Assembly: GCF_002803075.1 (NCBI RefSeq)
Contig: NZ_NNBK01000002.1
Coordinates: forward strand, 434,001-498,000
Length of the DNA stretch: 64,000 nucleotides
From: Streptomyces sp. CB01373
GTDB taxonomy: Bacteria; Actinomycetota; Actinomycetes; Streptomycetales; Streptomycetaceae
Direction: 5' to 3'
Part shown: piece by piece, positions 1 to 5,010 of the stretch
Position numbering within the stretch: the first letter of the stretch is position 1
Layout of the letters: the number at the start of each line of letters is the position of its first letter
Notes under the pieces: model-generated
The model's database searches: none
Told to the model about the DNA's origin: nothing
The model's input: only the letters and a program-made list of their open reading frames with translations
Position numbers and translations under genes: made by a program

Positions 1-354
1 GGACCGGAAGCGGTCCATGACACCGGAGTTGAAGTCCGTGTTGAAGCCGGTGCCCACGCTCTGGGCCAGGTTCATGCCCATCATGGCCATCAGGCCGGGC
101 ACGATGTACTGCACGTACTGCTGCTGCCCGCCGCCCAGCGACTGCCCGATCGAGCCGCCGAAGACGTACACGAACAGCAGCGTGAAGATCACCGGGAACA
201 GGATCGCGTCGAACATCGATTCCGGGTCCTGCCGTATCCACAGCAGGTTGCGGCGGACCAGCGCGCCGGTGTGCCGCAGATGGCTGCGCAGCGGGATCCG
301 GGCATCGGCCTTGAGGCCGGGGGAGCCCAGAGGGGTTGTGGTGACGGCGCTCAT
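1..354 (-). CDS. ABC-2 type exporter permease, DrrB-like (C-terminus outside window)
   Basis: Membrane subunit of an ABC exporter, paired with the ATPase encoded just upstream on the same strand. The start codon at 354 overlaps the ATPase stop codon as ATGA, so translation of the two is probably coupled. The visible 118 residues show a soluble N-terminus, then the family-typical stretch NLLWIRQDPESMFDAILFP entering the first membrane helix, a short glycine/glutamine-rich loop (GGSIGQSLGGGQQQ) and the start of the second helix. This layout matches the ABC2_membrane/DrrB family of drug exporters (about 250-280 aa in full). The gene runs off the left edge, so the remaining helices cannot be judged. 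The substrate is unknown. Confidence 0.88.
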   Translation of the reverse strand, partial: MSAVTTTPLGSPGLKADARIPLRSHLRHTGALVRRNLLWIRQDPESMFDAILFPVIFTLLFVYVFGGSIGQSLGGGQQQYVQYIVPGLMAMMGMNLAQSVGTGFNTDFNSGVMDRFRS

Positions 355-1381: not shown

Positions 1382-1427
1382 GAACAGTGCCAGCCCCCAC
1401 CGACAAACCACCGACAGTCCACCGACA
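1382..1427 (-). promoter_or_regulatory. Promoter with three 11-bp-spaced direct repeats (SARP-like) upstream of the ABC operon
   Basis: On the minus strand the nine bases TGTCGGTGG occur three times at exactly 11-bp spacing (plus-strand copies 1397-1405, 1408-1416, 1419-1427). The last heptamer TGTCGGT is followed after 8-9 bp by CACTGT, a plausible -10, and then 7 nt later by the ATG at 1376. Direct heptamers at 11-bp spacing, overlapping the -35 and about 8 bp from the -10, are the known binding arrangement of SARP-family activators. Assignment to a SARP is inference; no SARP gene is present in the window. Confidence 0.5.
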
Positions 1428-1604
1428 GACGGCACCGGGCGCCGACATGTCCCCGACGAGCACCGCAACCATCGATTGAGGAACCACGACGGTGAGCAAC
1501 CACCTCCGCGAGAGCGGCGCCGGGTCAGGCGCAAAAACCGGCAGCCCCGCCGACGGGGGAAGATCGGCGGGGCTGCCCTGGTACCGCGATGGCTCAACCG
1601 GAGG

Positions 1605-2471
1605 TCAGTGCACCGAGTGCTCCTCCAGCGGGAACGTCCCGCCCACCACGTCCTCGGCGAACGCCTTGGCCGCGCCGCCGATGACCTCCCGCAGATCGGC
1701 GTACTTCTTGACGAACTTCGGCACGCGCCCGCCGGTCAGTCCGAGCATGTCGGTCCACACCAGCACCTGCGCGTCCGTGTCGGGCCCGGCGCCGATGCCG
1801 ACGGTCGGGATGTGCAGCATCCGCGTCACCTCGGCGGCCAGTTCGGCCGGCACCAGCTCCAGGACCACCGCGAACGCGCCCGCGTCCTGAACGGCCTTGG
1901 CGTCCCGCAGCAGTTGCTGCGCCGCCTCCTCGCCGCGGCCCTGGACGCGGTAGCCCATGGCGTTGACGGACTGCGGGGTCAGGCCGATGTGGGCCATGAC
2001 CGGGATGCCGGACTCCACCAGGAGCCGGATCTGCTCGTGCGACCGCTCGCCGCCCTCCAGCTTCACGGCGCCGACGCCCGCCTCCTTCACCAGCCGGGTC
2101 GCCGAGCGCAGCGCCTGCACCGGACCCTCCTGGTAGGAGCCGAAGGGGAGGTCGCCGACGATCAGGGCGCGCTTCGTGCCGCGGACGACCGCGGCCGACA
2201 GCATCGTCATCTCGTCGAGCGTGACGGGCACGGTCGTCTCGTAGCCGAGGTGGCAGTTGCCCGCGGAGTCGCCGACCAGCATCACCGGGATGCCGGCCTC
2301 GTCGAAGACGGACGCGGTCATCGCGTCGTAGGCGGTGAGCATGGGCCACTTCTCGCCGCGTTCCTTGGCGAGGGAGATGTCGCGAACAGTGATGCGGCGA
2401 GTGCCCTTCCCCCCGTACAGCGCCTTGCTGCCGTCGGAGGGCTTGTTGTGGGCAGCCGAAAGCTGCGTCAT
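1605..2471 (-). CDS. panB: 3-methyl-2-oxobutanoate hydroxymethyltransferase
   Basis: First step of pantothenate synthesis: transfers a hydroxymethyl group from 5,10-methylenetetrahydrofolate to 2-oxoisovalerate, giving ketopantoate, in the cytoplasm. The 288-aa product has the PanB signatures: ITVRDISLAKERG near the start, MLTAYDAMTASVFDEAG, the metal-binding Asp motif VGDSAGNCHLGY, VGDLPFGSYQ, KLEGG, and PVMAHIGLTPQSV. The length fits the family (about 265-290 aa). I chose the ATG at 2471 because GGAG lies 8 nt upstream; an in-frame ATG at 2492 lacks a good ribosome site. It stands alone between the ABC operon and the divergent MFS gene. Confidence 0.96.
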   Translation of the reverse strand: MTQLSAAHNKPSDGSKALYGGKGTRRITVRDISLAKERGEKWPMLTAYDAMTASVFDEAGIPVMLVGDSAGNCHLGYETTVPVTLDEMTMLSAAVVRGTKRALIVGDLPFGSYQEGPVQALRSATRLVKEAGVGAVKLEGGERSHEQIRLLVESGIPVMAHIGLTPQSVNAMGYRVQGRGEEAAQQLLRDAKAVQDAGAFAVVLELVPAELAAEVTRMLHIPTVGIGAGPDTDAQVLVWTDMLGLTGGRVPKFVKKYADLREVIGGAAKAFAEDVVGGTFPLEEHSVH

Positions 2472-2614: not shown

Positions 2615-2643
2615 TTCCGATACGAGACGGTCTCGTATCGGAA
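2615..2643. promoter_or_regulatory. 29-bp perfect inverted repeat, candidate TetR operator
   Basis: Two 14-bp arms (TTCCGATACGAGAC and its exact complement) flank a single central base at 2629. The site lies 19 bp before the start of the MFS exporter gene at 2663 and between it and divergent panB. The core GATACGAGACGGTCTCGTATC is a typical two-dimer TetR-family operator. The likely binder is the TetR protein encoded immediately downstream of the exporter (4384-5010). Binding is inferred. Confidence 0.75.
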
Positions 2644-2662: not shown

Positions 2663-4261
2663 ATGACTACTCCTGCCGACCGCGCCGTCGACGGCCCCCG
2701 GGTTCCGGAGGCGGTGCACCGCCGACGCTGGGCGATTCTCGGCGCGTTGATGCTGAGCCTGCTGATAGTGGTGCTCGACAACTCGATCCTGAACGTCGCG
2801 ATCAAGACCATCTCGACCCCCGCCCCGACGGGCCTGGGCGCCACGCAGAGCGAGCTGGAGTGGGCGATCAACGCCTACACGCTCGTCTTCGCGGGTCTGT
2901 TGTTCACCGCGGGCCTCGTCGGTGACCGCATCGGGCGCAAGAAGGTGCTGATCGGCGGCCTCATCGTGTTCGGCGCCAGTTCCGCGCTGGCCGCCGAGTC
3001 CGGCTCGCCCGCCCAACTCATCGCCTTCCGCGCCCTGATGGCCGTCGGTGCCGCCTTCGTCATGCCGGCCACCCTCGCCGTCCTGATGAACGTCTTCGAG
3101 CGCGACGAGCAGCCCAAGGCCATCGGCATCTGGGCCGGCGGCGTCGGCCTGGCCATCGCCATCGGCCCGATCACCGGCGGTCTGCTCCTGGACCACTTCT
3201 GGTGGGGCTCGGTCTTCCTGGTCAACGTTCCCATCGTCGTCATCGCGGTCGCGCTGATGCTGTGGCTGGTGCCCGACTCCCGCGACCCGCGGCCCGGCCG
3301 CCTCGACCCGATCGGCGTCGTCCTGTCCGTCGTCGGCCTGGTCCTGCTCGTCTACGGCATCATCAAGGGCGGCGAACTCGCCGACTTCACCGACACGACC
3401 GTGCTGTCGACGATCGCGGCGGGCCTGCTCGTCCTCGCGGCCTTCGTGGTGTTCGAAAAGCGCAGCGACCACCCGTCCCTGGACGTCACGTACTTCAAGA
3501 ACAAGGTCTTCTCGGCCGCCATGACCGCCATCGCGCTGGTCTTCTTCGCGCTGATGGGCGTGACGTTCTTCGGCATCTTCTACACCCAGAGCGTGCGCGG
3601 CTACTCGCCCCTGCAGTCCGGTGTGCTGATGCTGCCGCTGGCCGTCGCACAGCTGATCTTCGCGCCGCGGGCCCGGCTGGTCGTCGACCGCTTCGGCAAC
3701 AAGGCCACCACCACGGGCGGACTGGTCCTGCTCGCCGCCATGCTGGCCGCCTTCGCCGGCTTCGAGGCCGACACGCCGATCTGGCTGCTGGAGGTCGTCT
3801 TCTTCCTCATGGGCACCGGCATGGCGCACATCATGACGCCGACCAGCGTCGTCATCATGCAGGCCCTGCCCCGCGAGAAGGCCGGCTCGGCCTCCGCGCT
3901 CAGCAACACCTTCCGCCAGGTCGGCGGCGCCCTCGGCATCGCCGTCCTCGGCTCGGTGCTCTCGACGGCGTACCGCAACGACATCGAGGGCAAGCTCGGA
4001 CTGCTCCCGCCCGGGCTGCGCGACAAGGCGGCCGAGTCCATCGAGGCCACCCTCGGCGTCGCGGCCAAGCTCGGCCCGCAGGGCAAGGGCCTGATCGACC
4101 CGGCCAACCACGCCTTCCTGCACGCCATGCACGTCACCTCGCTGTGCGGGGCCGCGGTCGCGCTCGTCGGCGCGGTCGTGGTGGCCCTGTTCCTGCCCGG
4201 CAGGCAGCCGGTGCCGCAGAAGGATGAGGAAGAGGAGAAGGTGGTGGCGGCGGTGGAGTAG
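2663..4261 (+). CDS. MFS multidrug exporter, DHA2 (14-helix) family
   Basis: Proton-coupled drug exporter of the cytoplasmic membrane, 532 aa. The hydrophobic pattern supports about 14 helices. Visible DHA2 motifs are LDNSILNVA in helix 1, the loop 2-3 motif [10 protein letters not shown], and the antiporter-type helix 5 region [18 protein letters not shown]. Streptomyces relatives of this type (EmrB/QacA class) export antibiotics or dyes; the substrate here is unknown. The gene follows a strong palindromic operator and is followed by a TetR gene on the same strand, the usual repressor-exporter arrangement. The C-terminus is short and acidic (KDEEEEK). Confidence 0.93.
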
Positions 4262-4335: not shown

Positions 4336-4383
4336 GCGAGCCGCCCGATGGACAATCTCCTGTGCGACGAAAGGACGGCCCAC

Positions 4384-5010
4384 GTGAGCCTTGCCGACAG
4401 CCACACCGCTGCCGACGCCCCCGTGCGGGGGCGCCCCCGCAGCGAAGCGGTGGAACACGCCATTCTGGAGGGCGTGATGAAACTGCTGGAGGACGGTGTG
4501 CCGCTGGCCGAACTCTCCATCGAACGCATCGCCCGCACCGCGGGCGTCGGCAAGGCCACCATCTACCGGCGCTGGAGCGGCAAGGAGGAACTGTTCGTCG
4601 ACGTCGTACGCGCCGCCGAGCCCCCCGACCCCGAACTGCCGGGCACCTCCATGCGCGACGACCTCGTGGCCATCCTCGAACAGCTGCGCCGCCGCGGCCT
4701 GGTGAGCCGCAGCTCGCTCATCCTGCACAACGTCTACGCGCAGATGAAGAGCAGCCCGAAGATCTGGTGCGCCTACCACGCGACCGTCGTCGAGCCGCGG
4801 CGCAGGCTCCAGGTGGAGGTCCTGCGCCGCGGGCAGCGCGACGGCGAACTGCGCCGGGACGTGGACGTCGAGGTACTCGTCGACCTCTTCGTCGGACCCA
4901 TGCTGGTGCGCAGCGTGATGCGCCCGGACGCCGACCTGCCCGAGGGCCTGTCGGAGCAGATAGTGGACCTGCTGCTCGAAGGGCTACGGCCTGTCAGTTC
5001 CCCGCGCTGA
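4384..5010 (+). CDS. TetR-family transcriptional regulator
   Basis: Probable repressor of the MFS exporter encoded upstream. The 208-aa product opens with a flexible tail and then RGRPRSEAVEHAIL, leading into the helix-turn-helix with the TetR recognition signature IARTAGVGKATIYRRWSGKEELF (quoted in part: GVGKATIYRRW). The remaining ~140 residues form the ligand-binding half, similar to TetR_C domains with no known ligand. I chose the GTG at 4384, which has AGGA 8 nt upstream, over the ATG at 4348. The best candidate operator is the 29-bp palindrome at 2615-2643. Confidence 0.92.
   Translation: MSLADSHTAADAPVRGRPRSEAVEHAILEGVMKLLEDGVPLAELSIERIARTAGVGKATIYRRWSGKEELFVDVVRAAEPPDPELPGTSMRDDLVAILEQLRRRGLVSRSSLILHNVYAQMKSSPKIWCAYHATVVEPRRRLQVEVLRRGQRDGELRRDVDVEVLVDLFVGPMLVRSVMRPDADLPEGLSEQIVDLLLEGLRPVSSPR

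Follow-up and report, generated by a model that had tools for sequence, protein, structure and literature searches.

SARPs have been studied mainly as activators of antibiotic clusters. Most of the medium and large members are described as poorly investigated (PMC10972967). The operators of these regulators are direct repeats spaced 11 (or 22) bp apart, the 3' repeat lying 8 bp from the -10 element (PMC10936776). On the afsS promoter, for example, the repeats bound by AfsR span -40 to -30 and -29 to -19, the unit contacted is 8 bp in length, and two residues, R92 and T88, touch T(-38) and the base pair at -36, respectively (PMC10936776). Three-repeat SARP operators have already been described, for PimR, DnrI and ActII-ORF4 (PMC5930380, PMC10972967), and three is the best number of repeats reported for PimR (PMC5930380); the kind of site is therefore known.

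Here we examined three repeats of TGTCGGTGG in front of a DrrAB-like ABC exporter of Streptomyces, which very probably form the putative operator through which an adjoining, convergent large SARP would activate the exporter. Among the known systems that come nearest, AfsR/afsS shares with this locus a large SARP with an ATPase part and a pair of 11-bp repeats, starting at -40 and -29, in activating position; the locus differs in having another heptamer, a third copy and, as target, an exporter whose message is probably leaderless (PMC10936776). The DNA-contact residues of AfsR are partly kept, R92 corresponding to R72 of the linked regulator and T88 being replaced by A68 (PMC10936776). The PimR operator of pimM likewise consists of three heptamers with 4-nt spacers, but PimR is a SARP-LAL of a polyene cluster with the heptamer CGGCAAG, and its operator is described as not overlapping the -35 (PMC5930380, PMC10972967). 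As to the target, the exporter ATPase is like those of the DrrAB and Otr(C) drug exporters in passing the drrA subfamily model (TIGR01188, 403.9 bits, cut-off 312.45) and in having Otr(C) as its top raw score (415.1 bits). Unlike those systems, it misses the Otr(C) cut-off of 750, its permease, of ABC-2 type (102.2 bits, cut-off 26.9), fails the DrrB subfamily model (TIGR01247, 53.9 bits versus a cut-off of 223.05), and the exporter is widespread in the genus.

Repeat array and promoter core

The window, by which we mean the whole 64,000-nt stretch of DNA analysed, contains the three copies of TGTCGGTGG at an exact 11-bp period on the minus strand (1397-1427), with AC and TT as linkers (Table 1). 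The original prediction of a triple repeat with this spacing was exact, and the array lies beyond what shuffling produces: when the 110-bp promoter was dinucleotide-shuffled 5000 times, none of the shuffles gave 9/9 identity among three copies at lag 11, and the best gave 7. A pair pattern, TGTCGGTGGNNTGTCGGTGG, allowing up to three mismatches, matched the window twice, both times inside the array (100 shuffles: mean 0.10 matches, largest 1). Scanning the genome for the array and for SARP genes, as had been proposed, gave a single match of the full triple at up to three mismatches in 7.88 Mb (backwards control 0) and seven BTAD genes. A two-copy pattern at the same tolerance gave 18 matches in this genome, two within the array and 16 at exactly three mismatches, versus 12 for the backwards control. 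There was no sign in this genome of a cluster regulon sharing the array, which is a single site.

Table 1. Features of the exporter locus and its convergent regulator (window coordinates unless a locus or contig is named)
Feature	Position	Strand	Remark
Large SARP gene, 1197 aa	L008:5905-9498 = G000:C12:429905-433498	+	wholly left of the window
Exporter permease, ABC-2 type, gene start	1..354	-	extends left of the window to L008:9524
Exporter ATPase, DrrA subfamily, 341 aa	351..1376	-	assigned by drrA model score; message probably leaderless
Extended -10, TGgCACTGT (consensus TGnCANNNT)	1384..1392	-	conserved columns in 101 promoters
Proximal repeat TGTCGGTGG	1397..1405	-	starts at -29 from the A of the ATG
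Middle repeat TGTCGGTGG	1408..1416	-	starts at -40 from the A of the ATG
Distal repeat TGTCGGTGG	1419..1427	-	starts at -51 from the A of the ATG
Terminator-like hairpin with T run	1540..1577	-	between panB and the exporter promoter
panB (ketopantoate hydroxymethyltransferase)	1605..2471	-	upstream neighbour; context, outside the switch

The last copy had been placed 8-9 bp from a -10-like CACTGT (1389-1384, minus strand), and the distance is indeed 7, 8 or 9 bp depending on which end of the repeat is taken: 7 bp from the 9-mer, 8 bp from the 8-bp unit and 9 bp from the 7-mer TGTCGGT. With its exact 11-bp period and this gap, the array agrees with the SARP operator rule. Only 7 nt separate CACTGT from the ATG of the exporter ATPase (1376-1374). 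A promoter scan did not find a sigma-70-like site in this region, which says little because the shuffles likewise gave none. The count of one terminator-like hairpin upstream compares with a shuffle mean of 0.4 (sd 0.7).

Conservation in orthologous promoters

Conservation of the repeats in orthologous promoters was examined in 101 promoters, from which L128 was left out for want of a usable start. With the proximal-copy register taken as the best consensus match out of nine, a heptamer-like copy was present at -11 relative to that copy in 101/101 promoters, at -22 in 98/101 and at -33 in 25/101, with out-of-register controls at 0-3. Two of the loci, L026 and L111, are one record, and 98 promoter rows are distinct over the last 60 bp; among these the copy at -11 occurs in 98 and that at -22 in 95. 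A test for three copies with at least 5/7 identical positions was passed at lag 11 in 99/101 promoters and at lag 22 in 25, the control lags of 9, 10, 12 and 13 giving 0, 5, 2 and 1. The first four bases of the proximal copy (T1 G2 T3 C4) are invariant in all 101, and mean identity between promoters is 74% over array and core and 33% over the 45 bp directly upstream.

The core is conserved at a fixed distance from the repeats. Counted from the proximal repeat, the promoters have T at position 14 in 99, G at 15 in 101, C at 17 in 65, A at 18 in 83 and T at 22 in 101 (n=101). The A of the ATG follows 7 or 8 positions past the final T of the -10. In 85 rows the proximal copy begins at -29 from the ATG and in 16 rows at -28, so it is the distance to the ATG that varies, by 1 nt, and not the spacing of array and core. 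Absence of the repeats from orthologous promoters had been named as grounds for refutation; the array was instead conserved in nearly all orthologues examined, which supports the expectation of a SARP-type operator ahead of a DrrAB-like exporter. Shine-Dalgarno-like words were found in just 2/101 promoters. The exporter promoter is probably leaderless and SARP-activated, its register agreeing with that of AfsR/afsS to about 1 bp. The base at -1 before the exporter ATG is C in 80/81 promoters, which may have relevance to the start of a leaderless transcript.

A convergent large SARP linked to the exporter

The original prediction regarded the exporter as a stand-alone one with its activator encoded elsewhere. 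This part is not supported: a large SARP gene, convergent with the exporter, ends about 0.5 kb to the left of window position 1. Its product has the make-up of a SARP, an OmpR-type winged helix (Trans_reg_C, 31.1 bits, cut-off 26.2) followed by a BTAD domain (142.5 bits, cut-off 22.1), and residues 4-241 match AfsR structures (8hvr, E 5.2e-36). The features expected of a large SARP are a length of about 1000 residues, an NTPase part in the centre and a TPR region at the C-terminal end. The regulator, at 1197 residues, matches AAA_16 (34.2 bits, cut-off 32.6), with a P-loop at residue 395, and no Pfam match to a TPR family was obtained at E≤0.001. Identity of the regulator as the AfsR orthologue (NF053617) was considered and rejected, the score being 187.2 bits versus an equivalog cut-off of 1430; another gene of the same genome reaches 1772.6.

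Autoregulation was also rejected, as no array lies upstream of the regulator gene. No heptamer occurs within 200 bp upstream of the regulator in 87/90 loci, and lag 11 shows no enrichment there (6/90, versus 11, 5, 6 and 4 at lags 9, 10, 12 and 13). There is therefore no autoregulation to back the link between regulator and array.

Linkage to the exporter is seen in the gene order of other genomes. A contig scan with the regulator protein, from which at least 80 Streptomyces loci were kept, gave 81 loci with our own included; among the matches listed, convergent regulator, permease and ATPase occur together in 81/81, and panB lies no more than 4 kb upstream, on the strand of the exporter, in 62/81. 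A divergent branch, with ATPases 71-78% identical, has regulator matches adjoining the exporter in 20/20 loci. At E≤1e-120 the exporter ATPase was found in 182/199 Streptomyces genomes sampled. Other genera of the family also have the adjoining pair at many loci: regulator matches at E≤1e-150 occur in 82/101 family genomes and 12/17 genera, and among 40 of these loci that were fetched the exporter is inside the stretch in 21 and absent from it in 19. Among the 21, the exporter is on the same strand as the regulator in one and several kb away in another.

Seventeen Streptomyces genomes were counted as exporter-less, and 15 of these have either no regulator match or partial ones of at most 55% identity, among which there may be a diverged regulator. 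One genome counted as exporter-less by the first search (G079) in fact has both exporter and regulator. In another (G057; L129, L143) the locus is decaying, with a split regulator and a permease remnant next to panB, and the exporter ATPase was not found at that locus.

Register on the promoter and repeat specificity

Numbered from the A of the ATG, the middle and proximal copies begin at -40 and -29, the positions at which the repeats start on the afsS promoter. The -10 hexamer, at -13 to -8, is one base off its usual place, so the fit to AfsR/afsS is good to about 1 bp and depends on an assumed transcription start at the A of the ATG. The AfsR equivalents in the regulator, R72 and A68, were assigned from the structure-match alignment and are each present in 93/93 Streptomyces rows; the repeat has T as its third base.

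AfsR itself probably has a different box in this genome. Downstream of afsR, the sequence CGTTCATCGTT CGTTTATCGCC, unlike TGTCGGTGG, is followed by CATTCT ahead of a 62-aa gene that we take to be afsS. The probable AfsR box offers a natural contrast inside the same genome.

Repeat specificity was compared in 22 loci, the 21 family-level loci with exporter and a second convergent SARP-exporter pair of our own genome (L186, G000:C7:130500-143500), whose exporter start is preceded by its own 11-bp repeats, TGTCAG/TGACAG. Layout is similar in all 22, with the A of the first ATG 7 or 8 positions past the core in 21/22, and the repeats take the versions TGTCGGT, TGTCAGC, TGACAGC and TGACGGA. TGAC copies occur in 8/8 loci whose regulator has Thr68 and in 0/13 with Ala68, in a register score that is without shuffle control and doubtful in register for L148; L186 has Arg at residue 68 and mostly TGAC. 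This is suggestive of a repeat specificity that varies with residue 68 of the regulator. Covariation at residue 68 was rejected as independent proof: the Thr68 rows form one clade, and the change of residue and repeat therefore counts as one event.

The array at unlinked genes

Outside our own genome, where the exporter is the only target found, the array also precedes genes unlinked to the regulator. A two-copy pattern of array and core gave 30 matches in 61 genomes (backwards 0), 22 of which are exporter promoters by a hand count against exporter coordinates; the other eight lie before a monooxygenase (4), a siderophore-interacting-type FAD protein (2), a short-chain dehydrogenase (1) or no assigned gene (1). 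A three-copy pattern gave 63 matches in 101 genomes, with a control that was not clean (13 backwards matches in 5/101 genomes). Exporters account for 50 of the 63 by coordinates, seven by reading of the loci and one, in G079, beside the L128 exporter; the remainder lie before a monooxygenase (3), a dehydrogenase (1, G071) and an apparently SnoaL-like gene (1).

The flavin monooxygenase is like Tet(X) in having it as best NCBIfam match, with 104.3 bits over the first 300 residues; unlike Tet(X), it stays far under the cut-off of that model (NF033111, 750 bits). Thirty-two homologues were examined, 30 loci (one per genome) of 36 matched genomes and two found by pattern, counting array and core as present at ≥16/22. 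By this measure they precede 19/21 of the most similar monooxygenases (down to L216, 73%) and 0/11 of the least similar (L220, near 73%, and below). Leaving out six promoters tied to the discovery gave 13/15. For the short-chain dehydrogenase the count was 22/24, or 20/22 minus the two that led there. Random windows reached ≥16/22 in 12/2000 cases; these were 170-bp windows from fetched loci, some with exporter arrays, and the dehydrogenase stretches were 200 bp. Neither the monooxygenase (E≤1e-70) nor the dehydrogenase (E≤1e-30) had a match in our own genome.

The exporter is present in all 19 and all 24 host genomes of these unlinked targets. We rejected this co-occurrence as support for the targets, and it is no proof of a common circuit, because most Streptomyces have the exporter (182/199 genomes) and exporter-less genomes are too few. 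The unlinked targets could also be under a different SARP that shares the motif.

Discussion

We observed the array, its core and the spacing between them, the linkage of regulator and exporter, conservation of the sites and a common promoter layout. From these we propose that SARP protomers would bind next to one another, each on its own repeat, with two of them in the place that AfsR occupies at afsS, and that the bound SARP would recruit RNA polymerase to a weak core to give a leaderless exporter mRNA. The STAND ATPase and the C-terminal part may restrain the SARP domain until a ligand is sensed, and this ligand would probably be a toxic small molecule.

Other readings of the array deserve consideration. 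PhoP-type response regulators have a similar repeat spacing, and the repeats might serve one of these or another OmpR-fold regulator with 11-bp direct repeats. This is hardly credible given an array that is linked to a SARP, stands at a SARP-type distance from the -10 and has a heptamer unlike the PHO box, GTTCACC. A point in its favour is that, at some promoters, PhoP sites coincide in part with those of AfsR (PMC10936776). An unlinked SARP, whether AfsR or an antibiotic-cluster SARP, could find candidates among the seven BTAD genes of the genome and a site in an operator geometry that is common to SARPs (PMC10936776, PMC10972967). We consider this unlikely in view of a convergent linked regulator that is conserved together with the exporter, a presumed AfsR box that differs from the array, and an array present once in this genome and not at several cluster promoters. 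Less likely again is a linked regulator that binds the array to repress or tune the exporter: negative regulation is reported for one SARP, Atr32 (PMC10972967), but the repeats stand in the same activating position towards the -10 as those used by AfsR at afsS.

Activation of the exporter by the adjoining SARP may be part of a larger response. The presence of array and core before the unlinked monooxygenase and dehydrogenase suggests that the circuit probably couples export with compound modification, and in species with further targets the modifying enzymes would rise together with the exporter under the same regulator. The best reading of the sequences is that a cluster-independent STAND-SARP would switch on efflux, and modifying enzymes in some species. 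A fuller version, tentative and leaning somewhat to the doubtful side, is that the Streptomycetaceae have inherited vertically a cluster-independent SARP that senses toxic compounds, aromatic polyketides or quinone-like molecules perhaps, and that drives, through the same array and extended -10, an intrinsic-resistance regulon consisting of the linked DrrAB-like exporter in most Streptomyces and the unlinked Tet(X)-like monooxygenase and short-chain dehydrogenase in some species. Were this true, proteins known for turning on antibiotic production would also run a self-protection response.

The literature searched, which left subscription journals mostly outside, gave no example of a SARP that accompanies a drug-type exporter throughout the genus and has an operator in common with possible drug-modifying enzymes, and a search on the letters of the repeat returned no SARP title among the matches listed. 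Our analysis makes the operator of a large SARP readable in about a hundred promoters and offers a system for asking what STAND-type SARPs sense. The array motif also predicts candidate resistance genes, having led from the exporter promoter to the Tet(X)-like enzyme and the dehydrogenase in other genomes.

Further observations at this and related loci

The neighbouring genes read were panB, an MFS gene and a TetR gene. An inverted repeat, TTCCGATACGAGA-cgg-TCTCGTATCGGAA (window 2615-2643), directly precedes the MFS transporter gene (2663-4261), which is followed by the TetR-family gene (4348-5010); the MFS gene beside panB is probably a TetR-controlled efflux gene. The S. coelicolor counterparts of the locus are presumably SCO2257, SCO2258 and SCO2259, of which no mention was found in the literature searched.

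Several distant monooxygenase homologues without the array (L218-L220, L222, L223, L225, L228) were also inspected. A number of them show other inverted repeats, GGAACnnnGTTCC-like or ACGAACnnGTTCGT-like, as if these genes were under TetR-type control. Array-like sites were seen at L236 (G046:C188) and L198 (G060:C1), one before a small gene, which we take to be SnoaL-like, and the other without an assigned gene. At L195 and L196 a paralogous large SARP is convergent with the gene for the siderophore-interacting-type FAD protein. The promoter of that gene carries a pair of TGTAGGC repeats at 11-bp spacing, and the plan of the exporter locus thus recurs with a different target. Finally, one exporter promoter (L068) carries extra TGTCGGTgcg heptamers at 10-bp spacing upstream of a normal array, bringing its exact heptamers to eight.
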